A DNA stretch of 62,477 bases from IMG/VR virus record IMGVR_UViG_3300045999_003247, positions 1 through 62,477 of that record; one strand, 5' to 3'. The position numbers and the translations under genes are program-made. Position 1 is the stretch's first letter, and each line of letters begins with the position of its first letter. The notes beneath the pieces are model-generated. The model had not been told where the DNA came from and made no database searches. It saw only the letters and a list, made by a program, of their open reading frames with translations. The DNA comes from a virus. Of this stretch, positions 290 to 62,477 are shown piece by piece.

Positions 290-991
290 TCACGCGCCGA
301 GGCGCACGACGAAGCCTGACACGTCCGCCCGGGCCGGGCCCTTGGCGCGCAGACCCACGACGACGTTGGCCGGATCCGTGAAGCGCAGGTCCGTCAGATC
401 TCCATCGATGACGCGCGCGCCGCCCCAGAACAGCGGCAGCGGCGCGCCGCGGGCCGTGTCGAAAACCACGGCGACGTTGCGCCCGTGATCGAGCGCGCCC
501 AGCGCTTTCCGCGCATACGCGGGATTCGCGCCCGAATAGCTCACCGTTAGGTGATAATTGGCCGGCACCTTCCGCCCCGGGAGTTTCGTGTAATCGTAAA
601 ATTGCACGTCAGGGAATTGCTCAAACAGCGTCTTCCCATCGCCGCCGCGCATATTTTCCCACGCGATGTCGGACGTCCCGTTGAGGCGGACCGCGAGCCG
701 GACCGCTTGGCGATCCGCTTTCCGCAAAGCAATCCGAATATCGGCGGCGATCGCATCCACGAAGGCGACCGGGTCGCGCTTGAAAGCCTCCGTCTTCGCG
801 GCGCGCGCCTGCTGTACGTTTGAGAATGCGCCGCGGCCAGCCATGTTCAGGCACGGCGCTTGGCATTGCGCCAAGCGCGACATGGCGCACAGATCATCAT
901 CGGGCCGCAGGTACAGAATCGCCGTCAGGTACTCGCCGCCACGATCCGATTTGATCGTTTTCGCGTTATTCCCGATCGCAAGGTATCGCAT
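290..991 (-). CDS. GP88-family phage protein, left copy
   Basis: A 233-residue protein of the family named after mycobacteriophage gene product 88. Recognisable blocks are the N-terminal cysteine cluster (CAMSRLAQCQAPC), NMAGRG, the RLNGTSDIAWE block, FPDVQFYDYTK, a NYHLTVSYS block and the C-terminal VIDGDLTDLRF and VVGLRAKG blocks. Biochemical role is unknown. The start at 991 is preferred over upstream in-frame starts because AGGAAG lies just before it, inside the CTATACAG leader also seen at DUF932 and the 74-residue gene. A second, diverged copy is cut by the right edge. Differences between copies are mostly synonymous, so both appear to be under protein-level selection. Confidence 0.85.
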   Translation of the reverse strand: MRYLAIGNNAKTIKSDRGGEYLTAILYLRPDDDLCAMSRLAQCQAPCLNMAGRGAFSNVQQARAAKTEAFKRDPVAFVDAIAADIRIALRKADRQAVRLAVRLNGTSDIAWENMRGGDGKTLFEQFPDVQFYDYTKLPGRKVPANYHLTVSYSGANPAYARKALGALDHGRNVAVVFDTARGAPLPLFWGGARVIDGDLTDLRFTDPANVVVGLRAKGPARADVSGFVVRLGA

Positions 992-1003
992 GCTTCTTTC
1001 TTC

Positions 1004-1011
1004 CTGTATAG
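1004..1011 (-). promoter_or_regulatory. CTATACAG leader element upstream of GP88
   Basis: Minus-strand CTATACAGGAAGA sits 12 bases before the GP88 ATG and merges into its Shine-Dalgarno sequence. The octamer recurs before DUF932, the 74-residue gene and the plus-strand gene at 61700. It may be a shared translational leader; TATACA resembles a -10 box but no conserved -35 is visible. Confidence 0.5.
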
Positions 1012-1163: not shown

Positions 1164-1213
1164 CATTCCAGAACGGAATGGTTTCGCTCGATTTATTCCG
1201 TTCTGGAATAAAT
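1164..1213. promoter_or_regulatory. Paired palindromic operator-like sites
   Basis: Two hairpin-like palindromes: CATTCC-AGAAC-GGAATG at 1164-1180 and ATTTATTCC-GTTCT-GGAATAAAT at 1191-1213. Their cores, TTCCAGAACGGAA and TTCCGTTCTGGAA, are exact reverse complements, so the pair forms four TTCC/GGAA half-sites. Centres are 30 bases apart, close to three helical turns. They lie in the intergenic space between the GP88 start (991) and the DUF932 stop (1373), upstream of GP88. Operator function is inferred. Confidence 0.55.
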
Positions 1214-1215
1214 AC

Positions 1216-1313
1216 CGCCTCAATCGAGGCGCATAAATCGATAGGCTCCGCCTATCAATGGCGCAGCCTATCAGAAGTCGGAATTGGATAGGTAAAGGCT
1301 ATCGATAGCCTTT
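1216..1313. repeat. Iteron-like cluster of GCCTATC / GATAGGC heptamers
   Basis: Within about 100 bases there are a 6-bp hairpin CGCCTC-AATC-GAGGCG (1216-1231), GATAGGC-TCC-GCCTATC (1240-1256), another GCCTATC (1266-1272), GATAGGT (1287-1293) and a perfect 20-bp palindrome, AAAGGCTATCGATAGCCTTT (1294-1313). The 992-1372 gap contains no supportable gene. Clustered heptamers in both orientations resemble a replication origin, partition site or multi-operator control region. This is inferred from arrangement only. Confidence 0.6.
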
Positions 1314-1330
1314 GGTTCTCGGCGGAGAAT

Positions 1331-1363
1331 GTAAGCGGTGCTAACATGGTTGGCACCGCTTAC
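1331..1363. repeat. 11-bp inverted repeat behind DUF932
   Basis: GTAAGCGGTGC (1331-1341) and GCACCGCTTAC (1353-1363) are perfect inverted repeats around an 11-base loop, starting ten bases beyond the DUF932 stop on the minus strand. The stem is strong but has no T-tract on either side. It could be a factor-dependent terminator, an RNA-stability hairpin or a binding site belonging to the adjacent iteron cluster. Confidence 0.6.
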
Positions 1364-1372
1364 GTCGGGCAG

Positions 1373-2458
1373 TTAAGCGGCAAGCTTCAGCAGATCGCCC
1401 GCTTTTGTTTCAAAGTCGACGCGCGCATCTGTCCATTCGATTTGTCTCGCGTAGGCGGTAGCACCCGTGACGGCGTCCCACAAGGTTTCAATGGGCCGGC
1501 CTTCGTCCAGCATATGCGCGTGCTGGATTTTGTCGGCCATTCTCGGTCCGAATCGTGTGGCCAAAAAGGCTTCGACCTTGTCGATCTTAGTTGACTGCGC
1601 CGAGCGCAAAACGCGGTCAATTTCGCCCGTGCTGGCGCGGCTGTATTCCAGAAGCGCAGGCGCGACTTGATCTAAAAAACGGTCGGGAGCGCTGGCAGTG
1701 TGGCGGATACTGATTTCTTCGAGCTCGTGGGCCCCCCAGACGATGCGATTTGCGCACACGTAGTCGAACAGGAAGGTTTTTACCCGCAAAGCACCCGCGC
1801 CGACTTCAGAATTCGTGACAAAAAAACCGCGCGCGAGGTTGCCGGTCTGACCATTTCGGCGCCCGGGGAGCTCGATTCTGTTTTTTTCGTCGGCCAGAAA
1901 AACGAACATGTCCCTGTCAGAGGCAAAAAGCGTCGTGTTACGTTTCGTAACCTCGACGTCATGGCCGAATTCGCCCGGCACTCGCCAATCCCCGCTGACG
2001 CCATCACCGAACCGGTCGACAAGGGCGGAAACGACGTCCGAATTCCAGATGCGCCCGTACCGCGGCCCGGTCATGGCCATAATCTCCGACCGCCCGTTCT
2101 TCCGCAGCAGAACGCCGACGTCTTGCGCCTCGCGCTCAACCTGCAAACCATAATTCAAACAATCAGCGGCCAGCGGTGCCGGTAGGTCGCGGAGATACCC
2201 GGCGGGAGCGCCGACCAGCGCAGCCGCTTGGCCGAACGCCCAGTGCGTGGGCTCGAACTGGTATCCGGACGGGCCCTGCACCAGCACCCCTCTGTTGTCG
2301 TCCGTCGGGACGACATGCAGGCGTCGGCTGCTGACGACGCACTCGCGGCTGATCTGCCGGTTATGCAGCATCGTTTCGCGCATGTCCACCAGACTGGTGA
2401 AGCGCTCTTCTGAAGGCCGAGTTGCCCACTGTCGGCTGGCTTGCATCAAAGTCGTCAT
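1373..2458 (-). CDS. DUF932 phage/plasmid-like protein
   Basis: A 361-residue protein that reads as the DUF932 family (phage/plasmid-like, TIGR03299 type): an N-terminal block with QGPSGYQFEPTHWAFGQ, a central SEIMAMTGPRYGRIWNSDVV block, a FVFLADEKNRIELPG block and FLFDYVCANRIVWGA before a helical C-terminus. The molecular function of the family is not established. Two ATGs lie near the leader; the one at 2458 is spaced correctly from GGGAGA, whereas the one at 2464 is too close. The leader carries the CTATACAG element and a 7-bp hairpin at 2480-2499. The 11-bp inverted repeat at 1331-1363 follows the gene. Confidence 0.85.
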   Translation of the reverse strand: MTTLMQASRQWATRPSEERFTSLVDMRETMLHNRQISRECVVSSRRLHVVPTDDNRGVLVQGPSGYQFEPTHWAFGQAAALVGAPAGYLRDLPAPLAADCLNYGLQVEREAQDVGVLLRKNGRSEIMAMTGPRYGRIWNSDVVSALVDRFGDGVSGDWRVPGEFGHDVEVTKRNTTLFASDRDMFVFLADEKNRIELPGRRNGQTGNLARGFFVTNSEVGAGALRVKTFLFDYVCANRIVWGAHELEEISIRHTASAPDRFLDQVAPALLEYSRASTGEIDRVLRSAQSTKIDKVEAFLATRFGPRMADKIQHAHMLDEGRPIETLWDAVTGATAYARQIEWTDARVDFETKAGDLLKLAA

Positions 2459-2469
2459 TCTCATTCTCC

Positions 2470-2499
2470 CTGTATAGAACCGATGCGTTAGTGCATCGG
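2470..2499 (-). promoter_or_regulatory. DUF932 leader: CTATACAG element plus 7-bp hairpin
   Basis: On the minus strand, CCGATGC-ACTAAC-GCATCGG (2499-2480) is immediately followed by TTCTATACAGGGAGA. About 20 of 24 bases (TAACGCA..CGTTCTATACAGG) match the leader of the next upstream gene at 2754. The octamer ends 11 bases before the start codon. Role inferred: a shared regulatory or translational leader. Confidence 0.5.
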
Positions 2500-2529
2500 C
2501 AGTCACTCTAAGTCAAACAAAAGCCATCG

Positions 2530-2754
2530 TCAACCCCGCGCGCGGGATGCTCGCAGTTGGGCCTCTCGGCAAACGTCCAGTTCGAGGTATAGCCGAACGC
2601 AGTAGGATGCGTCGTCCCTGAACTGGCGCAAGCAAGAGTTGATGTCCCCGTTTGCGTACTGAAGGCGGCATCGCCAGAACTCAACGCTTTCATCAGCGCG
2701 GCGTGCGAACTTCGCGGCATAGGCTTCCGTCATCATTCGGGGGGCGTCGGGCAT
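2530..2754 (-). CDS. Small conserved-type protein, 74 residues, unknown
   Basis: Begins MPDAPRMMTEAYAAKFARRA and continues with an Arg-rich helical body carrying three scattered Cys residues. No signal peptide or membrane segment is visible and I do not recognise the family. The start at 2754 is chosen because AGGAGA lies 11 bases upstream in the CTATACAG leader; in-frame codons further upstream have no ribosome site. It lies between the 61-residue gene and DUF932 and probably shares the regulation of DUF932 and GP88. High GC and the shared leader set this arm apart from the replication block. Confidence 0.6.
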   Translation of the reverse strand: MPDAPRMMTEAYAAKFARRADESVEFWRCRLQYANGDINSCLRQFRDDASYCVRLYLELDVCREAQLRASRARG

Positions 2755-2775: not shown

Positions 2776-2785
2776 AACGGCTGCG

Positions 2786-2971
2786 TTATTGCTTTCGATT
2801 CCATAGGCGCTGGACGGCCAGCATACCGGCCAGTTTAAGCGCCTGCCCGAGCGTGGCGTCGGGCGGTCTATTGGCAGCCAATGCGGCATTCATGTCCGCC
2901 CGCTGACGCTCGTGCGCTACGATCATGGCCCTGATTTTGGCGGCGTCCATCCACTTGGTTTCCTGTTCCAT
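2786..2971 (-). CDS. Small helical protein, 61 residues, unknown
   Basis: Starts MEQETKWMDAAKIRAMIVAHERQ at an ATG preceded by GGAGAAAGATAGAT. The sequence predicts mostly alpha helix, with an acidic/basic first half and a hydrophobic LGQALKLAGMLAV stretch that is too short for a confident membrane span. It follows the nuclease gene on the same strand after a 47-base gap. No family recognised. It is the only gene in the left arm without the CTATACAG leader. Confidence 0.6.
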   Translation of the reverse strand: MEQETKWMDAAKIRAMIVAHERQRADMNAALAANRPPDATLGQALKLAGMLAVQRLWNRKQ

Positions 2972-3018
2972 ATCTATCTTTCTCCGTTATTGGCCCCGCA
3001 TTTGGGAAGTACAAGGTC

Positions 3019-3444
3019 TCACAAAATAACATCACCGGTCAATACGTTCTTCAGCATTTCCCAGTGCACCTCGCCCCAGTTCCACCGCGCGAGCGGACGA
3101 ACGTCAATCCCGCCCTCATGCAGCCGAATCGCCTGCTCCCCGCCGTAGAGCAAAAGCTCGCACTCATGCACGCGCTTTCCCATGGGCGCATGCAGGACCA
3201 AGATGTAAGACGGGCATCCATGTTCGGTGTGTCGCATATGGAACGCGATCTGGTGAGGCGACAGGCGCACCTGCCGACCATGGCGCACGACCTTCAACTC
3301 GACCAGCGCAAAGCCTCTGTTTTTGAATCCGATCAGGACATCCGGTATGCCGAGTCCGACCCTACTTTCGATCCGGGTAAAAAGGCAGCCGGACATTTGC
3401 GCCGTCATTCGTCGATACAACACGGCTTCTGGTTTTGCGGGCAT
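3019..3444 (-). CDS. VRR-NUC-like PD-(D/E)XK nuclease
   Basis: A 141-residue protein whose middle reads RVGLGIPDVLIGFKNRGFALVELKV. This fits the D...E-x-K core of small VRR-NUC / Holliday-junction-resolvase-type nucleases: PD in IPD, then E and K in VELK, followed by a conserved Q in the next helix (SPHQIAFH). It likely cuts branched or terminal phage DNA. The start at 3444 is taken because GGAAG precedes it; this puts the first 83 bases inside the 3' end of the small terminase gene, in another frame. Proximity to small terminase suggests a packaging-linked or junction-trimming role. Low-similarity members of this fold are hard to classify, so the exact family is uncertain. Confidence 0.7.
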   Translation of the reverse strand: MPAKPEAVLYRRMTAQMSGCLFTRIESRVGLGIPDVLIGFKNRGFALVELKVVRHGRQVRLSPHQIAFHMRHTEHGCPSYILVLHAPMGKRVHECELLLYGGEQAIRLHEGGIDVRPLARWNWGEVHWEMLKNVLTGDVIL

Positions 3445-4162
3445 TGTCTTCCGTCTCGATAGGCTCTGGAGGCGCTGAGAGCGCCTCTGGGGCGTCTTCA
3501 GTCTCCCCGCTGGTCGGGTAGTCGTCCTCGAACTCTGCGTCCTCCGCGGCGTCCACGGGCGGCTGGTCGTCATCCGTCAGCGTCTGCTGCACCTGCTCCG
3601 GCGTCACGTCGATGACAGGAGACCCCGCGCCGTAAACGCGCTTGATTTCTTCGAGCTTCCGCATGACTTCGTCGCGTGACATCGAGTCGATTGTCCCGTG
3701 TCGGATCTCTTTCCGGTCGATATAGATCGACCCAATCGCTTGCCCCCGCCGATACTCGGCCTGCACGGCAGCGCCGTAGGCGCCCGCGGCCAGCGCTTGG
3801 TCGCGGATCACCTGCAGGTCATGCATGTGCCGCTCGAACGTGGTGCCGTATTTCTCGGCCATCTCGGCACGCGCGGCCTGCACTGCCGCGACCACGTGCG
3901 GGCTGATCGCCGGGTCGAGCAGGCGCTCGACCGCAGGCTTTGCTTTGGCCGGCGGATAGCCGGCACGTATGGCAGCCTCACGCGCAGATATCGAGCCAAC
4001 ACTGCTCGTCAGCTCTTGGACAAAAGTCCATTCCTGCGTAGTCAGCGGCTTGTTCTTTTTCGGGCTGTCGGGAACCGGCTGGGTCAGCTTCTTGGTCGCG
4101 GCCGGTGAGAGCTTCCGGCGCGGCATCCGCGCCGAGAACTCGTCGTCCTTTTTGGACGGCAT
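3362..4162 (-). CDS. terS: Terminase small subunit
   Basis: A 266-residue protein with a basic N-terminal tail (residues ~1-40), a helix-turn-helix-like segment (LTTQEWTFVQEL...SAREAAIRAGYPPAKAKPAVERLL) typical of small terminases, a helical oligomerisation region with EKYGTTFERHMHDLQ, and an acidic C-terminal tail rich in Asp, Glu and Pro. It should recognise the packaging site and load the large terminase at 59906-61372. The start at 4162 uses a TGATG overlap with the upstream stop. The acidic tail is encoded in the region overlapping the nuclease start. Separation from the large terminase is explained if the genome is circular. Confidence 0.8.
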   Translation of the reverse strand: MPSKKDDEFSARMPRRKLSPAATKKLTQPVPDSPKKNKPLTTQEWTFVQELTSSVGSISAREAAIRAGYPPAKAKPAVERLLDPAISPHVVAAVQAARAEMAEKYGTTFERHMHDLQVIRDQALAAGAYGAAVQAEYRRGQAIGSIYIDRKEIRHGTIDSMSRDEVMRKLEEIKRVYGAGSPVIDVTPEQVQQTLTDDDQPPVDAAEDAEFEDDYPTSGETEDAPEALSAPPEPIETEDNARKTRSRVVSTNDGANVRLPFYPDRK

Positions 4163-4383
4163 CAGGCGACGCGCCACACGCGCCAGCCGCCCTCGACGTT
4201 TAGGCAGCTAAAACGACCGCCGACGCGGCGTTGAAACATCGACGCAGCACTGCGGATAGCTGACGACGTGCGCTTCGTGTGTTCTGCATCGGGCACGAAA
4301 AAACTATCGCCTACGGTCATGTCCCCGAACGGAAACTTGGACCGTGTTACAGGCATCTGAACACCCTGTTCGATTGCATACAT
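4162..4383 (-). CDS. Conserved small phage protein (GDSFFVP type)
   Basis: A 73-residue protein with the pattern PFGDMTVGDSFFVP, a central TSSAIRSAASMFQRR helix and a C-terminal GGWRVWRVA. Small proteins of this pattern occur in many phages (I associate it with DUF7303) and have no known function. The basic, aromatic C-terminus could bind nucleic acid. Its stop overlaps the small terminase start by one base (TGATG), implying translational coupling. It is the first gene downstream of the AT-rich gap at 4384-4892, so a promoter is expected there. Confidence 0.65.
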   Translation of the reverse strand: MYAIEQGVQMPVTRSKFPFGDMTVGDSFFVPDAEHTKRTSSAIRSAASMFQRRVGGRFSCLNVEGGWRVWRVA

Positions 4384-4649
4384 GATTCTTGCTCGCTGTT
4401 GTGACTAGGCTGTCCGGTAGTGGGCAGCGTGGCGCACTATACCACAACCTAGTCTTGTGTGGTTTTGAATGCGTAACCTGTGGCCTTCGGCCTGCAAGGG
4501 CCCTCCGGGCAAAAAACAGGGGTTGCATAGTACTTTTTGCCAAGAAATAAAAAAAAAAAAACAAAAAATTGTCTCGCGCGCGATCCCCAGATGAATTTCG
4601 TCTATCCTGTAGGTGTAATGTAACGTGCAGTCGTAACCCCTTGATTCCA

Positions 4650-4685
4650 TTACGTTATTACGGCATTACGTCTATTACGTCTATT
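4650..4685. repeat. ATTACG(TCT) iterated motif
   Basis: CATTACG, TTATTACGG, CATTACGTC and TATTACGTC follow one another with almost no spacing, and GTAATG/TAACG variants flank them. On the minus strand the unit reads GACGTAAT. Spacing near one helical turn in part of the array would suit cooperative protein binding. Inferred only. Confidence 0.5.
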
Positions 4686-4788
4686 TTCAAAAAAAAAATT
4701 TCATTTCACTACTTTTCTGGAAAGGGACTAGTAATACGCCCAAAACAGCCCAAAAACCCCGTTCCGCGGTCCTTTCTTGACAATCCCT

Positions 4789-4870
4789 GCCCCTTTCCCC
4801 CTTCTCCGCCCCTCCTGTCACCCGTCCGCCACCCTGTCCTTCACGCCCCTTTCCCCCTTCTCCGCCCCTC
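4789..4870. repeat. Two 26-bp direct repeats, pyrimidine-rich
   Basis: Bases 4789-4814 and 4845-4870 are identical (start GCCCCTTTCCCCC, end CGCCCCTC), 56 bases apart. The purine-rich complement on the minus strand lies directly after the 61-residue gene that stops at 4893. Such mirror-like polypyrimidine tracts can form triplex DNA; function unknown. Confidence 0.75.
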
Positions 4871-4892
4871 AAACCCCTCTAAAATTACCCCG

Positions 4893-5078
4893 TCATCCCG
4901 TCTCCGCCCCCTGTTTTTCAACAACCTGCCTGCCATGTGCGACTTGTTTAGCGAGTTCTTCCAGCAAAACATTTTGCACTTCTATGCGCCTTCTCAGCTC
5001 GTTGATGTACTCCTGAAGCTCAACGCTTTCGATTTTGACGGGCGGTCCGTGGGTCGTGGTCTGTGCTGGTCTAATCAT
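4893..5078 (-). CDS. Small helical protein, 61 residues, unknown
   Basis: Begins MIRPAQTTTHG and then forms a likely coiled-coil helix (VELQEYINELRRRIEVQNVLLEELAKQV). The ATG overlaps the upstream stop (ATGA) and has a strong GGAGGT ribosome site. Hydrophobic residues recur in heptad-like spacing, suggesting an oligomeric protein. No family recognised. It ends the operon that starts around 9322 and is followed by the AT-rich gap. Confidence 0.7.
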   Translation of the reverse strand: MIRPAQTTTHGPPVKIESVELQEYINELRRRIEVQNVLLEELAKQVAHGRQVVEKQGAETG

Positions 5079-5314
5079 TTCTGTACCTCCGTGGTCCGTG
5101 GGTCGTCGTTATTTGCCATCCGCGTGTACCAGACAGCCTTTTGCAGGTCTTGTGTGGGGGTGGCGTGTTTTAGCTGGGCGCGCCAAAGGTACTTTATGGC
5201 GTTGCCTCTGCAGAAGGCGACGAAGCCATCGGGCCCGAGGGCGGCGCGGATGGCGTCGATACACTCCACGTCGCCGGCACTGTAGTGCGGAGGGCGATTG
5301 ACCATGTCTTTCAT
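5075..5314 (-). CDS. DUF3310 (SaV-like) protein
   Basis: A 79-residue protein with the family hallmarks: VNRPPHYSAGDVECIDAI near the start, GFCRGNAIKYLWRA-like text in the middle (here VAFCRGNAIKYLWRAQLKH) and a QDLQKAVWYTRM helix. This nucleotide-metabolism-like fold is very common in phages, but its reaction is not established. It overlaps both neighbours by four bases. The adjacent MazG-like gene suggests a shared role in adjusting the nucleotide pool. Confidence 0.85.
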   Translation of the reverse strand: MKDMVNRPPHYSAGDVECIDAIRAALGPDGFVAFCRGNAIKYLWRAQLKHATPTQDLQKAVWYTRMANNDDPRTTEVQK

Positions 5315-5757
5315 TGGCTGGGCTCCTTGACGAAGATGCCATCTGGTCTGAGCGTTCCGCGGCGCGTGCGAATTTCATCGTAGGCGCCTTCGAGGCAGTC
5401 TAGGAGTTCGAGGCCGGAGAGTTTGGCGCCGATGATGAGTGTGACGAAAATATCGCCATAGGCGTCGGCAACTTCGTCCCGCGAGCCGCGGTTAATGGCC
5501 GTAAGCAGCTCCTGCACTTCTTCGAGCGTCTTCAGGCCCTGTGCCATGGGGTTGCTGTTGGGGATGATCTTTCTGTTGGATGCCCAGTTGGTGACGAGGT
5601 CTTCCAGTACGTCGTACTTTAGCAAGTGGTTTCTCCCGATGCGGTTGTTGACGGCGAGCAGTTCGGCGAAGCAGATAAGGTCATCCGCGTGTCGTGCCAC
5701 GAAGACCTCGTCGAACCCTGCCTGCGCTGCGGTTTTTAGGATGTCAGTAATGGTCAT
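5311..5757 (-). CDS. MazG-like nucleotide pyrophosphohydrolase
   Basis: A 148-residue, all-helical protein with the MazG-type metal-binding pattern: KTLEEVQELLTA (EExxE-like) around residues 78-88 and EVADAYGDIFVTLI (ExxD-like) around 95-108, ending with the RRGTLRPDGIFVKE tail typical of phage members. Expected reaction: hydrolysis of nucleoside triphosphates or (p)ppGpp-like alarmones to monophosphates, favouring phage DNA synthesis or damping the stringent response. A four-base ATGA overlap links it to the next gene on each side. The N-terminal ~75 residues are longer than in minimal MazG domains. Confidence 0.75.
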   Translation of the reverse strand: MTITDILKTAAQAGFDEVFVARHADDLICFAELLAVNNRIGRNHLLKYDVLEDLVTNWASNRKIIPNSNPMAQGLKTLEEVQELLTAINRGSRDEVADAYGDIFVTLIIGAKLSGLELLDCLEGAYDEIRTRRGTLRPDGIFVKEPSQ

Positions 5758-6845: not shown

Positions 6846-6988
6846 TTCAAAATCTCCCGCTCCAGAATCGCGACCATCTCGCCAATCTCCTCGATCAGAT
6901 AATCAGGCGTCCGTGTGTCCCGATAGATGCCGACCGATTCAAGCGCCGAAAGAAGGCGCATCAGGCGTAACAGTTCTTGCTTGGTCAT
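6842..6988 (-). CDS. Small helical protein, 48 residues, unknown
   Basis: Encodes MTKQELLRLMRLLSALESVG... ending EMVAILEREILK, one or two amphipathic helices. The ATG at 6988 has an excellent ribosome site (GGGGGAGAAG) and overlaps the stop of the glycine-tyrosine repeat gene by ATGA, so both ends are fixed by neighbours. No family recognised. Its conserved-looking, non-repetitive codon use contrasts with the repeat gene upstream and supports both as translated genes. Confidence 0.65.
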   Translation of the reverse strand: MTKQELLRLMRLLSALESVGIYRDTRTPDYLIEEIGEMVAILEREILK

Positions 6989-7329
6989 TTTCTTCTCCCC
7001 CTGCTTTTCTCTACGGTCCCGTAGCCGGTCCCGTAGCCGTATCCGTAGCCGTATCCGTAGCCGGTCCCGTTGCCGTATCCGTAGCCGTATCCGTAGCCGG
7101 TCCCGTTGCCGGTCCCGTTGCCGTATCCGTATCCGTAGCCGTATCCGTAGCCGTATCCGTAGCCGTATCCGTAGCCGGTCCCGTTGCCGGTCCCGTTGCC
7201 GTATCCGTAGCCGGTCCCGTCGCCGTATCCGTCGCCGTATCCGTCGCCGTATCCGTAGCCGTATCCGTTGGCGTATCCGTAGCCGGTCCCGTCGCCGTCG
7301 CCGCTGCCGACAGAAAAGAATATGGGCAT
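6985..7329 (-). CDS. Glycine-tyrosine repeat protein
   Basis: A 114-residue protein with a short hydrophobic start (MPIFFSVGSGDGD), about 95 residues of alternating Gly-X dipeptides, and a basic end (VEKSRGRRK). X is Tyr, Thr, Asn or Asp, in the order G-[Y/N/D]-G-[Y/T], which is a 12-base repeat in DNA. Both ends are fixed by translational coupling: TAATG with the upstream gene and ATGA with the downstream gene, which argues for a real gene rather than a repeat artefact. Gly/Tyr-rich low-complexity proteins can self-assemble or bind surfaces; function here is unknown. Repeat number is likely variable among relatives. Confidence 0.55.
   Translation of the reverse strand: MPIFFSVGSGDGDGTGYGYANGYGYGYGDGYGDGYGDGTGYGYGNGTGNGTGYGYGYGYGYGYGYGYGYGNGTGNGTGYGYGYGYGNGTGYGYGYGYGYGTGYGTVEKSRGRRK
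7013..7308. repeat. Tandem 6/12-bp repeat array inside the Gly-Tyr gene
   Basis: On the plus strand the array alternates (GTATCC or GGTCCC) with (GTAGCC, GTTGCC or GTCGCC). Substitutions fall mainly at one base, changing Tyr to Asn or Asp on the minus strand, while Gly codons never change. No stop or frameshift occurs across ~300 bases, which supports coding constraint. Confidence 0.9.
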
Positions 7330-7622
7330 TACAGCCCCCATCCGTCGTGGACAGGTACACAGAAAATCTCTGCGCCTTCGGGCATATGTACGTCCGCAAT
7401 CGGGCGCAGGTCTGCCTGCTCAGTCTCGACCATCTTGGCAAAACCGATTGTGTCCCATGAGAAAACATGGACGGCTCGGCTCAGATGAATCCGTCCGTTT
7501 TCCCTAGTCACGTCTCCAGCAAAGATCCATCCACGATCTACGACGACCACAGCACGAGTGCCTGTCGGCAGACGGGAAGAAACGGGAGCATACTCAACAC
7601 CATTAATCGTTACGTTTTGCAT
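7329..7622 (-). CDS. Small beta-rich phage protein, 97 residues, unknown
   Basis: Starts MQNVTINGVEYAPVSS, then beta-strand-rich text (TRAVVVVDRGWIFAGDV, RIHLSRAVHVFSWDTIGF) and ends CVPVHDGWGL. Short proteins beginning M-x-x-V-T-I-x-G-V-x-Y are common in phages; role unknown. The ATG at 7622 has AAGGAG eight bases upstream. An in-frame ATG at 7658 also has a good ribosome site (GGAGG) and overlaps the upstream stop by ATGA; using it would add 12 residues (MTREEIIQGDLK) that copy the start of the gene at 6845. Confidence 0.65.
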   Translation of the reverse strand: MQNVTINGVEYAPVSSRLPTGTRAVVVVDRGWIFAGDVTRENGRIHLSRAVHVFSWDTIGFAKMVETEQADLRPIADVHMPEGAEIFCVPVHDGWGL

Positions 7623-7654: not shown

Positions 7655-7819
7655 TCATTCCACATGCCTCCACGTCTTACGCGCCACCACGGACTCAATG
7701 GCTCGTTTGCTGACCTCGAACTTCCGCGCCAGCACGCGATAGCTCAGATCCGGGTGAAGCTGGCGGATCAGGCGCACGTCGCTCTCGGTCAGCTTGGTGA
7801 AGTAATTCCGACGTCCCAT
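7655..7819 (-). CDS. Small helix-turn-helix protein
   Basis: A 54-residue protein: MGRRNYFTKLTESDVRLIRQL..., then LSYRVLARKFEVSKRAIESVVARKTWRHV. This is a classic tri-helical HTH in which the second part resembles the recognition module of phage HNH-associated and resolvase-type proteins (LARKFEVSKRAI as the turn; KTWRHV as the tail). It probably binds DNA and may regulate the early operon. The ATG at 7819 follows GGAGG; its first 31 bases overlap the next gene's end in another frame. An in-frame GTG lies just upstream. Confidence 0.7.
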   Translation of the reverse strand: MGRRNYFTKLTESDVRLIRQLHPDLSYRVLARKFEVSKRAIESVVARKTWRHVE

Positions 7820-8199
7820 TCTCTGGTGTACCTCCACCCGTTGATCCCCTGCGCTTTGCTCAGACGTTTTTTAGCCCACAGTTCCATCAGAGGGCTTTTA
7901 GTAGATGCGTTTTCATCCACTTTCGCCCTCTCGATCCGTTCAATAAATGGGATCTTTTTCGTGACATCTTTGAATCCCCGCCGCCTGATCCAGCTCATAA
8001 CCGCATGTCGGCTAACCCCAAGCTCTGCCGCAATATCGTCGATGTCCAAGGTCTCCAGCATGCCCAGAAATTTCTCATCGCCGGGGTATTTCTTGTTGGC
8101 TGGCACAAACTTTTTAGTGCCCTTGCTCCGTTTTGAGGCCATGGCAACTTCCCAACTGATCGGGATCTTGGTCTCTTTCTTTCCTTCAACGTATCTCAT
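7789..8199 (-). CDS. Helix-turn-helix DNA-binding protein, 136 residues
   Basis: Begins MRYVEGKKETKIPISWE, has a Lys-rich stretch (ASKRSKGTKKFVPANKKY) and then an HTH: LETLDIDDIAAELGVSRHAVMSWIRRRGF, with the turn at AELGVSRHAV. The rest is helical and basic, ending GWRYTREWDVGI. Likely a sequence-specific DNA-binding regulator. The start at 8199 has AGGAGGT six bases upstream and overlaps the upstream stop by ATGA. Two consecutive HTH genes in one operon suggest a small regulatory module. Confidence 0.7.
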   Translation of the reverse strand: MRYVEGKKETKIPISWEVAMASKRSKGTKKFVPANKKYPGDEKFLGMLETLDIDDIAAELGVSRHAVMSWIRRRGFKDVTKKIPFIERIERAKVDENASTKSPLMELWAKKRLSKAQGINGWRYTREWDVGITSPS

Positions 8200-8453
8200 C
8201 TCAGCACCTCCTCTTCCACAAACGCGTCGCGCGAGAAGTGGTCCCAGAGCACCTCCCACGCGTAGTTGGCCTTCATCTTTGTCTCGTGGTCCGCGCCGGC
8301 TTGAGCGGCATCCGCGATGGTTTCCTCGAAGAGTTCGCTGACAAGCGCTAGGGTGGCGGGACGTAGAGTACGTTGTCCGCACCAGATGCACGCGGGTTCT
8401 TGCACCGTGCTGATAGATAGGCACTCTTCGCAGATAGTCTTGTACGTTTCCAT
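8196..8453 (-). CDS. Zinc-ribbon-like small protein
   Basis: An 85-residue protein with a CxxC...CxxC pair near the N-terminus (ICEEC at residues 8-12 and CIWC about 14 residues later), fitting a small zinc ribbon, followed by an acidic helical segment (ELFEETIADAAQAG) and EVLWDHFSRDAFVEEE. It may bind nucleic acid or a host polymerase or protease. Start ATG has GAGAG upstream; stop overlaps the following HTH gene by ATGA. No family name recognised. Confidence 0.65.
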   Translation of the reverse strand: METYKTICEECLSISTVQEPACIWCGQRTLRPATLALVSELFEETIADAAQAGADHETKMKANYAWEVLWDHFSRDAFVEEEVLR

Positions 8454-8477
8454 CTATTTCTCTCTTTCTGTTTGTGT

Positions 8478-8699
8478 TTACGAGAAAAGCAAGTGTAGCA
8501 GGATTACGATAGCAAACAACCCCCACAGACATACCACATAACCCGCAGCAGTTTCCCGCTTTTGCTCCTGCCGCTCGAAGTAGTCCCTGTAGTCTTCCGC
8601 GTCGGTGTAGCATTTGAAAGGACCGCGGACCGCGGACCGTGGTTCGATGTCACACTGTACTATTTTGTACCCAGCATCCCCAAGCACAATCCACCACAT
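8478..8699 (-). CDS. Small C-terminal membrane-anchored protein
   Basis: A 73-residue protein with an N-terminal WWIVLGDAGYKIVQCDIEP segment and a clear C-terminal membrane helix (YVVCLWGLFAIVILLHLLF). This suits a tail-anchored inner-membrane protein, possibly a modulator of host membrane functions. The coding sequence contains a triple GGACCGCG-type repeat (8620-8643, plus strand), giving an PRSAVRGP peptide that looks inserted between ordinary residues. A GTG immediately before the ATG is an alternative start. No family recognised. Confidence 0.6.
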   Translation of the reverse strand: MWWIVLGDAGYKIVQCDIEPRSAVRGPFKCYTDAEDYRDYFERQEQKRETAAGYVVCLWGLFAIVILLHLLFS

Positions 8700-61372: not shown

Positions 61373-61478
61373 ACATACCCCGTTTGATAAAAATTTGCGA
61401 AAAATTTTTGCACGTAAATCAGAACGAGACAAGGCGGGGGGTTAATTGCTCACGGACCGGGATTCAGTGTCTAAAATC
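61373..61478. other. AT-rich spacer upstream of large terminase
   Basis: Contains two AAATTT palindromes (around 61388-61404), a purine run and a transition to the GC-rich repeat at 61479. A minus-strand TTGTCT with AAAAAT at 17-base spacing is a poor promoter match. No gene supported. Confidence 0.4.
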
Positions 61479-61652
61479 GAGCTAAAGCCACCGCCACCGC
61501 GACCCGGGGCGTTTTTTGGGGCCCCGGGGCCCGGGCCCGGGCGCGCGCCGAGCGCTGCGGCTCGGGAGCCGCGGACCGTGCGCCGACGCCGGCGGGCCGG
61601 GAGCCGGGAGCCGGGAGCCGTGCGCACAAATACCGCTTGACGTGCGGGGCGC
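61479..61652. repeat. 174-bp GC-rich direct repeat, right copy
   Basis: Identical to bases 6-179. Here the open frame through the repeat continues into the 57-residue gene region, while at the left end it continues into a different gene tail. Divergence is immediate on the right side of both copies. Confidence 0.9.
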
Positions 61653-61675
61653 GTCGCGGTCAAATCCGCGTGGTC

Positions 61676-61683
61676 CTATACAG
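61676..61683 (+). promoter_or_regulatory. CTATACAG element upstream of the 57-residue gene
   Basis: Plus-strand CTATACAG lies 16 bases before the ATG at 61700, then GACGGAG provides the ribosome site. It is the only plus-strand instance I found and links this gene to the leaders of GP88, DUF932 and the 74-residue gene. Confidence 0.45.
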
Positions 61684-61699
61684 CCAGACGGAGTCTAGA

Positions 61700-61873
61700 A
61701 TGAGAACGATCGACATGACGCCCACGTGGAGCGACATCGCGCCCGTGCTGTTCCGCATTATCCGCGACGCGGATAAGAGCGATTCGCTACGCACGGCGTA
61801 CGACGAATTGCTTCGCATGGCCGCGCTCGCCGACCGCGCCGTTGCGGCGGCAAAAGCGGAGGCCGAAGCATGA
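61700..61873 (+). CDS. Small helical protein, 57 residues, unknown
   Basis: MRTIDMTPTWSDIAPVLFRIIRDADKSDSLRTAYDELLRMAALADRAVAAAKAEAEA. The start has GGAG seven bases upstream and the CTATACAG leader; a terminator follows at 61894-61919, so it appears to be a complete monocistronic unit. Helical and acidic in the first half, Ala-rich at the end. No family recognised; small proteins with IRDADKSDSLRTAYDELLRMA-like text accompany phage early genes. Absent from the corresponding place at the left end. Confidence 0.65.
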   Translation: MRTIDMTPTWSDIAPVLFRIIRDADKSDSLRTAYDELLRMAALADRAVAAAKAEAEA

Positions 61874-61893
61874 CCACAGAACAGCACGACGAA

Positions 61894-61919
61894 GGGCGCC
61901 AGTAGGCGCCCTTTTTTTT
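61894..61919 (+). terminator. Rho-independent terminator, right copy
   Basis: Same 7-bp stem GGGCGCC-AGTA-GGCGCCC and eight T as at 255-280. It ends the 57-residue plus-strand gene. In this copy the next 30 bases hold an extra segment with CCACGGACCACGG absent from the left copy. Confidence 0.85.
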
Positions 61920-61964
61920 CGCTCGCGATCCGCGCGCCGAGGCGCGCGAACCACGGACCACGGA

Positions 61965-62477
61965 TCACGCGCCGAGGCGCACGACGAAGCCTGACACGTC
62001 CGCCCGGGCCGGGCCCTTGGCGCGCAGACCCACGACGACGTTGGCCGGATCCGTGAAGCGCAGGTCCGTCAGATCTCCATCGATGACGCGCGCGCCCCCC
62101 CAGAACAGCGGAAGCGGCGCGCCGCGGGCCGTGTCGAAAACCACGGCGACGTTGCGCCCGTGATCGAGCGCGCCGAGCGCTTTACGCGAGTACGCTGGAT
62201 TGGCGCCCGAGTAACTGACAGTCAAGTGATAGTTCGCCGGAACCTTGCGCCCCGGGAGTTTCGTGTAATCGTAAAATTGCACGGCCGGGAATTGCTCAAA
62301 CAGCGTCTTCCCGTCGCTTCCGCGCAGGTTCTCCCACGCGATGTCGCTGGTACCGTTGAGCCGTACCGCGAGCCGTACCGCTTGGCGATCCGCTTTCCGC
62401 AAAGCAATCCGAATATCGGCGGCGATCGCATCCACGAAGGCGACCGGGTCGCGCTTGAAAGCCTCCGTCTTCGCGGC
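61965..62477 (-). CDS. GP88-family protein, right copy, cut by window edge
   Basis: The C-terminal 170 residues of a second GP88 protein; the 5' end lies beyond the window. Compared with the left copy there are only a handful of amino-acid changes (for example MRGG to LRGS, DVQ to AVQ, ARKAL to SRKAL) but many silent ones. The last 101 bases (62377-62477) match 702-802 exactly. The pattern is that of two strain alleles rather than fresh gene duplication. Confidence 0.85.
   Translation of the reverse strand, partial: AAKTEAFKRDPVAFVDAIAADIRIALRKADRQAVRLAVRLNGTSDIAWENLRGSDGKTLFEQFPAVQFYDYTKLPGRKVPANYHLTVSYSGANPAYSRKALGALDHGRNVAVVFDTARGAPLPLFWGGARVIDGDLTDLRFTDPANVVVGLRAKGPARADVSGFVVRLGA

Follow-up and report, generated by a model that had tools for sequence, protein, structure and literature searches.

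A dense palindrome cluster in a phage intergenic gap: a possible composite cis-regulatory region at a gene-swap border

The gap at 992-1372 of the window (the whole 62,477-bp IMG/VR virus record analyzed here) is, in the reading that we favor with moderate confidence, a composite cis-regulatory region that belongs to a leftward gene cluster and sits at a gene-swap border. The gap contains palindromes, hairpins and promoter-like boxes, and its palindromes are packed at a density that chance does not produce. In one relative, the sites are conserved with constant spacing, and a gene swap extends from a leader module to the palindrome cluster.

Results

The ends of the window overlap at 94% identity. 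Positions 288-802 are 94% identical to 61963-62477, and 6-179 is the same sequence as 61479-61652, which indicates that the contig overlaps itself with strain-level differences. The record is thus likely to be an almost complete phage genome whose assembly ran round the circle and met differing strains where the ends join. Its terminase is closest to that of Phage DSL-LC04 (77%), followed by those of HTVC023P-type pelagiphages (55-61%). The genome encodes DNA polymerase A, an AEP-type primase, UvrD- and SNF2-type helicases, a portal and terminases; no integrase was found among the scanned proteins, which represent part of the ORFs. The gap is flanked by GP88 and DUF932, both read leftwards, and the features of the region are as follows.

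290-991, minus strand: GP88 family gene, downstream of the cluster (Pfam PF17338, E=4.6e-41)
1003-1011, minus strand: CTATACAGG box just 5' of the GP88 start codon
1013-1031, minus strand: leader hairpin GCGCCG/CGGCGC, 3' of the putative GP88 promoter and ahead of the start codon
1039-1067, minus strand: putative sigma70-type GP88 promoter TTGCGC-17-TAGGAT, as read from the sequence
1134-1150, unstranded: operator-like 17-bp dyad, with 2 mismatches relative to TGTNAGCRNYGCTNACA
1165-1179, plus strand: near-palindromic dyad TTCC-N5-GGAA, ATTCCAGAACGGAAT
1195-1209, minus strand: inverted second copy of the same 15-mer, 30 bp start-to-start from the first
1216-1231, minus strand: hairpin CGCCTC-GATT-GAGGCG
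1240-1272, unstranded: GATAGGC/GCCTATC units, inverted and direct, forming a long hairpin
1294-1313, unstranded: perfect 20-bp palindrome AAAGGCTATCGATAGCCTTT
1330-1364, unstranded: gene-end stem-loop 3' of the DUF932 stop, in which two TGTNAGCNNNGCTNACA-type dyads overlap
1373-2464, minus strand: DUF932 gene, the upstream neighbor (Pfam PF06067, E=2e-7)
2465-2533, minus strand: putative promoter TTGACG-17-TAGAGT, leader hairpin CCGATGC/GCATCGG and CTATACAGGGAG box, before DUF932

Perfect inverted-repeat arms (at least 6 nt, with a loop of at most 12) cover 98 of the 200 bases at 1164-1363, compared with a mean of 7.0 (sd 9.4, maximum 50) in 2000 dinucleotide shuffles of the same segment. Genome-wide, 200-bp segments contained a mean of 11.7 arm bases (sd 12.5) and the runner-up, in the G+C-rich tail, contained 70, making 1164-1363 the densest 200 bp in palindromes across the 62 kb of the window. 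A sequence-only reading had described a dense cluster here, and it is present, far above the level of the shuffles. The twin complementary palindromes that it placed 30 bases apart are exact reverse complements; the CGCCTC hairpin and the perfect 20-bp palindrome are likewise where it saw them, and the 11-bp inverted repeat, with arms at 1331-1363, matches at 14 of 15 positions once extended. Its four GATAGGC/GCCTATC units, on the other hand, come down to three exact ones (1240, 1250 and 1266) and a near match, GATAGGT, at 1287. It had also held that no gene explains these elements and, consistent with this, no ORF in the window accounts for 1164-1363, and a scan of the whole window against Rfam 15 gave 0 matches at the gathering score.

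Not listed in the sequence-only reading are the putative promoter and leader hairpin before GP88 and the 17-bp dyad TGTNAGCNNNGCTNACA, which lies at 1330-1346 and recurs in weaker form at 1348-1364 and 1134-1150; dyads of this type show no genome-wide enrichment. The TTCC dyads have no other mismatch-free occurrence in the genome, so that no regulon is visible, and we identified no cognate regulator for them. The ORF at 7789-8613 shows weak matches to an HTH domain and to a phage D5-like transcription regulator family; its product would be a candidate for a protein binding the dyads.

When IMG/VR was scanned for the cluster with three patterns, a single other phage matched, IMGVR_UViG_3300005805_001790 (L157, also L004); it is a close relative and, among the sequences searched, the only one sharing the cluster region. 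L157 is collinear with the window at 357-1304, 2461-2538 and 2785-5748. Between 1304 and 2461 there is no homology, and several small genes replace DUF932. The borders of the gene swap are, exactly, the DUF932 leader module on one side and the palindrome cluster on the other, and L157 retains the cluster despite its different upstream gene. In a gap-free 188-nt alignment of the window with L157, the single relative on which this conservation rests, the palindromic elements are identical at 70 of 75 positions (93%) compared with 81 of 113 (72%) outside them (Fisher p=1.3e-4). The GP88 coding DNA of the two phages is 86.7% identical, and the palindromic elements are thus conserved at least as well as coding sequence.

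Furthermore, the twin TTCC dyads of L157 retain the exact 30-bp spacing, with a 17-bp spacer that is equal in length and has drifted to 6 of 17 identical positions. The hairpin at 1216-1231 reads CGTTTC/GAAGCG in L157, which amounts to one compensatory pair and one change from C-G to U-G; the GATAGGC/GCCTATC hairpin differs by one base, and one C-G pair of the GP88 leader hairpin has become U-G. The putative GP88 promoter of L157 is TTGCCT-17-TAGGAT, and TGTGAGCATCGATAACA stands at the place equivalent to the dyad at 1134-1150. A hairpin at 1191-1213 has 9-bp arms in the window and shorter arms in L157, indicating that the RNA fold is not strictly conserved. The sequence of the 20-bp palindrome is not conserved, and homology stops there. 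The sequence-only reading had expected sites to be kept and spacers to drift among related phages; this is the pattern in L157, the only relative with the region, which supports functional sites and, among the options offered by that reading, fits a multi-operator switch best.

The gene-end stem-loop also has counterparts in L157, since the minus-strand TGTTAGCACCGCTTACATTCTCC of 1330-1364 matches units repeated after L157 genes. One such unit, TGTGAGCACTGCTAACATTCTCCGCC, sits after two inserted genes, with a shortened copy at the start of the cluster, and the window has TGTTAGCACCGCTTACATTCTCCGCC directly after DUF932. A reading of this motif as integron attC-like was rejected because the half-sites do not fit. 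A LacI/GalR-type operator was likewise rejected, as the half-sites are similar and the 3-bp centre spacing is wrong. A longer coding frame 5' of GP88 is open in both phages, but the changes between them do not appear codon-like.

The starts of GP88 and DUF932 share the same order of promoter boxes, hairpin and box. The word CTATACAG has 4 copies in the window, every one just before a gene start, compared with a shuffle mean of 0.57 (4 copies were reached in 0 of 100 shuffles), and promoter-like boxes precede it at DUF932, GP88 and several L157 genes. The promoter scan itself showed no overall enrichment (2 found vs 3.5 expected), and the GP88 -35 box is weak. On the minus strand of L157, repeated promoter, leader hairpin and TATACAGG modules lie between small genes at 655-2576, and the leader hairpins covary among copies, with A-U, G-U and G-C at one pair. 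The leader-module pattern also matched one Pedobacter contig; its matches in L158-L161 were false, being inside coding sequence.

How might such a region work? Read leftward, its first element behind the DUF932 stop codon would be a stem-loop that is at the same time a 17-bp dyad. Next come hairpins and the two inverted 15-bp dyads, which are likely sites for a phage or host DNA-binding protein; a dimeric regulator probably binds both dyads on the same helix face and would thereby control GP88. The region would close with the sigma70-type promoter, a hairpin at the mRNA start and the presumed ribosome-binding box CTATACAGG, leading to the GP88 start, and its stem-loops may separate or protect the two transcripts. 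Since the promoter, leader-hairpin and box module is repeated at other gene starts, homologous recombination between modules could exchange the genes lying between them.

Among wider relatives, 59 distinct loci have DUF932 followed by TerL. The sequence-only reading had named, as evidence against itself, relatives with the same genes in which the repeats are not conserved, and where DUF932-TerL relatives were inspected they indeed lacked the window motifs. In the more distant GP88 relatives that we examined (at most 65% identity), the upstream DNA was unrelated. TTCC-N5-GGAA pairs at 30 bp gave 46 hits in other viral contigs, none of which, apart from L157, encodes GP88, DUF932 or TerL; the common type of pair, examined in L285, is part of a coding repeat that resembles single-strand-binding protein and so lends no support to an operator. 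A scan of bacterial genomes for the pair found none.

What most relatives share instead is a noncoding element just before terL, roughly AAAAAACGGCC...GGCTTTAGCCCGATTTCACACA. In the window a version of it lies at 61479-61560 and again at the window start, and since it adjoins terL, the conserved noncoding site of the family is not the palindrome cluster. Around it, at 61440-61660 and 6-179, the window has the conserved form CCAAAAAACG...GGCTTTAGC.CGATTT just upstream of TerL. This element is a candidate packaging or origin site. Very G+C-rich repeated words adjoin it.

The core parS sequence GTTYCACGTGRAAC was found in 45 of 87 distinct terL-upstream regions of relatives, and there are 49 distinct occurrences in 2.8 Mb against 0.04 expected. 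These sites are of the chromosomal type, TGTTYCACGTGRAACA, and lie at about -160 to +38 relative to the TerL match; examples upstream of TerL are L130 (~6680), L141, L101, L113 and L164. A search of 17 whole records found a single parS in 10, one of them with a mismatch, and a ParB_N domain in 0 of the same 17. The site is absent from the window phage, where none occurs within 2 mismatches, and from DSL-LC04; nor did the window genome match ParB_N (PF02195). We found no obvious literature report of parS near terL, and the paper on HTVC023P-type phages (PMC9599517) does not mention parS. It looks like these relatives use a host segregation protein, a use that is possibly unreported.

Discussion

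Could the cluster act mainly as RNA? The minus-strand transcript of DUF932 and GP88 would then carry successive hairpins that act in its processing, stabilization or attenuation, or that form a small structured RNA; this alternative we regard as possible but rather doubtful. The fold of 992-1372 on the minus strand has a z of -6.3; the plus strand, however, folds equally well or better (-7.4), as is expected for palindromic DNA. Three single-base L157 changes in the cluster and leader hairpins give G-U pairs on the minus strand only and would be mismatches on the plus strand, and one pair is altered on both sides between the two phages. The confinement of the G-U changes to the transcribed strand, together with the double-sided change, favors some RNA role, as does the lack of a strong terminator after DUF932, unlike several relatives that have GC hairpins and T runs there. 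On the other hand, no Rfam family was matched. The stems are not of equal length in the window and L157, and the twin dyads hold a fixed 30-bp distance around a spacer that drifts, which is commoner at protein sites; both of these points favor DNA-binding sites. The region may be both, with operators inside a transcribed intergenic stretch.

The sequence-only reading had also offered a replication origin or a partition centromere, and of its options the multi-operator one fits best, the other two being unsupported. The origin, centromere and packaging readings are possible, with no positive evidence specific to these coordinates. An origin at which a phage initiator or the phage AEP primase/helicase recognizes iteron-like sites, which we judge unlikely, would agree with the dense palindromes, the repeated heptamers and the replication proteins encoded. 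The replication genes, however, are 8-18 kb off, the neighbors are GP88 and DUF932, a regular direct-repeat iteron array is absent, and relatives with the same gene order do not have the cluster in common. The GC-skew change that was to mark an origin did not appear either: around 1250 the skew is ~zero, with a small local rise only, and the global extremes lie at ~8.8 and 43.0 kb. Somewhat less likely again is a site between terS and terL that serves for cos/pac packaging or resembles a centromere, and that corresponds to the region in which relatives carry parS. The cluster does lie between terS and terL on the circle, relatives have parS near terL, and 36 of 59 relatives have their palindrome maximum between DUF932 and terL (8.5 expected by length). 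We rejected these maxima as a sign of conservation, because the ten inspected were largely terminators and short G+C-rich repeats; the common element of relatives adjoins terL, away from the cluster, and the window has neither parS nor ParB. The more specific proposal that the cluster is a centromere- or packaging-like nucleoprotein site replacing the captured chromosomal parS of relatives, a noncoding terS-terL handle gripped by a host protein, seems to us very improbable. Least likely is a remnant of a small MITE-like mobile element with terminal inverted repeats, carried along with GP88. Related 17-bp motifs bracket ~200 bp in opposite orientation in L157, and the element end coincides with the homology breakpoint; the bracketing motifs are themselves dyads, though, so their orientation means little, and neither phage has a second copy of the body nor, among the scanned proteins, a transposase.

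The regulatory reading has parallels in known phage systems. As outlined in PMC4503421 (citing Arbiol 2010 and Comeau 2014), PeSLs (promoter early stem-loops) of T4-type phages combine an early promoter and a stem-loop in intergenic gaps at the borders of exchanged genes. As far as that outline goes, the resemblance lies in a putative early-type promoter beside a stem-loop in an intergenic gap, repeated in one genome and found at exchanged-gene borders. In the present gap, putative promoter-like boxes and stem-loops occur together, and modules stand at DUF932, GP88 and several L157 genes with the swap between them. Unlike the PeSL phages, however, the window phage is not T4-type, its terminase being closest to those of DSL-LC04 and HTVC023P-type phages; its stem-loops lack a clear terminator T run, and it has extra inverted dyads. 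Similarly, the SAS/ESAS elements of cluster K mycobacteriophages (TM4) consist of a 13-bp GGGATAGGAGCCC box at start codons and 17-bp inverted repeats (PMC3203893). In these mycobacteriophages and the window alike, a short conserved box stands directly at the start codons of some non-structural genes, and an inverted repeat often sits just before it, whereas the window box is CTATACAGG rather than GGGATAGGAGCCC, has only 4 copies in the window, and is accompanied by 6-7 bp leader hairpins instead of 17-bp repeats, with the palindrome cluster farther upstream. By analogy, our best reading is that the region would work like PeSL and ESAS and is a member of neither by defining sequences or phage group.

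Fixed-spacing inverted dyads 5' of a promoter also recall the operator arrays of phage repressors and activators, but the cluster has no adjacent regulator gene, its sites are not repeated, and no dyad overlaps the predicted promoter. The likeness to chromosomal parS (TGTTYCACGTGRAACA) is a near-palindromic putative protein site in the terS-terL interval, where relatives carry true parS near terL; the cluster dyads differ in lacking the CACGTG centre and in their odd spacing.

If the regulatory reading is right, promoter/stem-loop modules as swap borders would extend beyond T4-type and cluster K phages to aquatic phages with HTVC023P-type terminases, and the window and L157 would be a clear example of such a swap, with two modules enclosing one gene in one phage and several in the other. 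The parS observation may matter more than the palindrome cluster; if confirmed, it would point to use of the chromosome-segregation protein of the host by these phages.

Elsewhere in the window, a small plus-strand gene (~61701-61871) is present in only one of the two end copies (1-800 vs 61479-62477), reflecting either strain variation or the assembly join. A long tandem repeat with a 12-bp period occupies 6971-7351, and its minus-strand frames would encode (G-Y/N/T/D)n or (R-I/D-R)n proteins.
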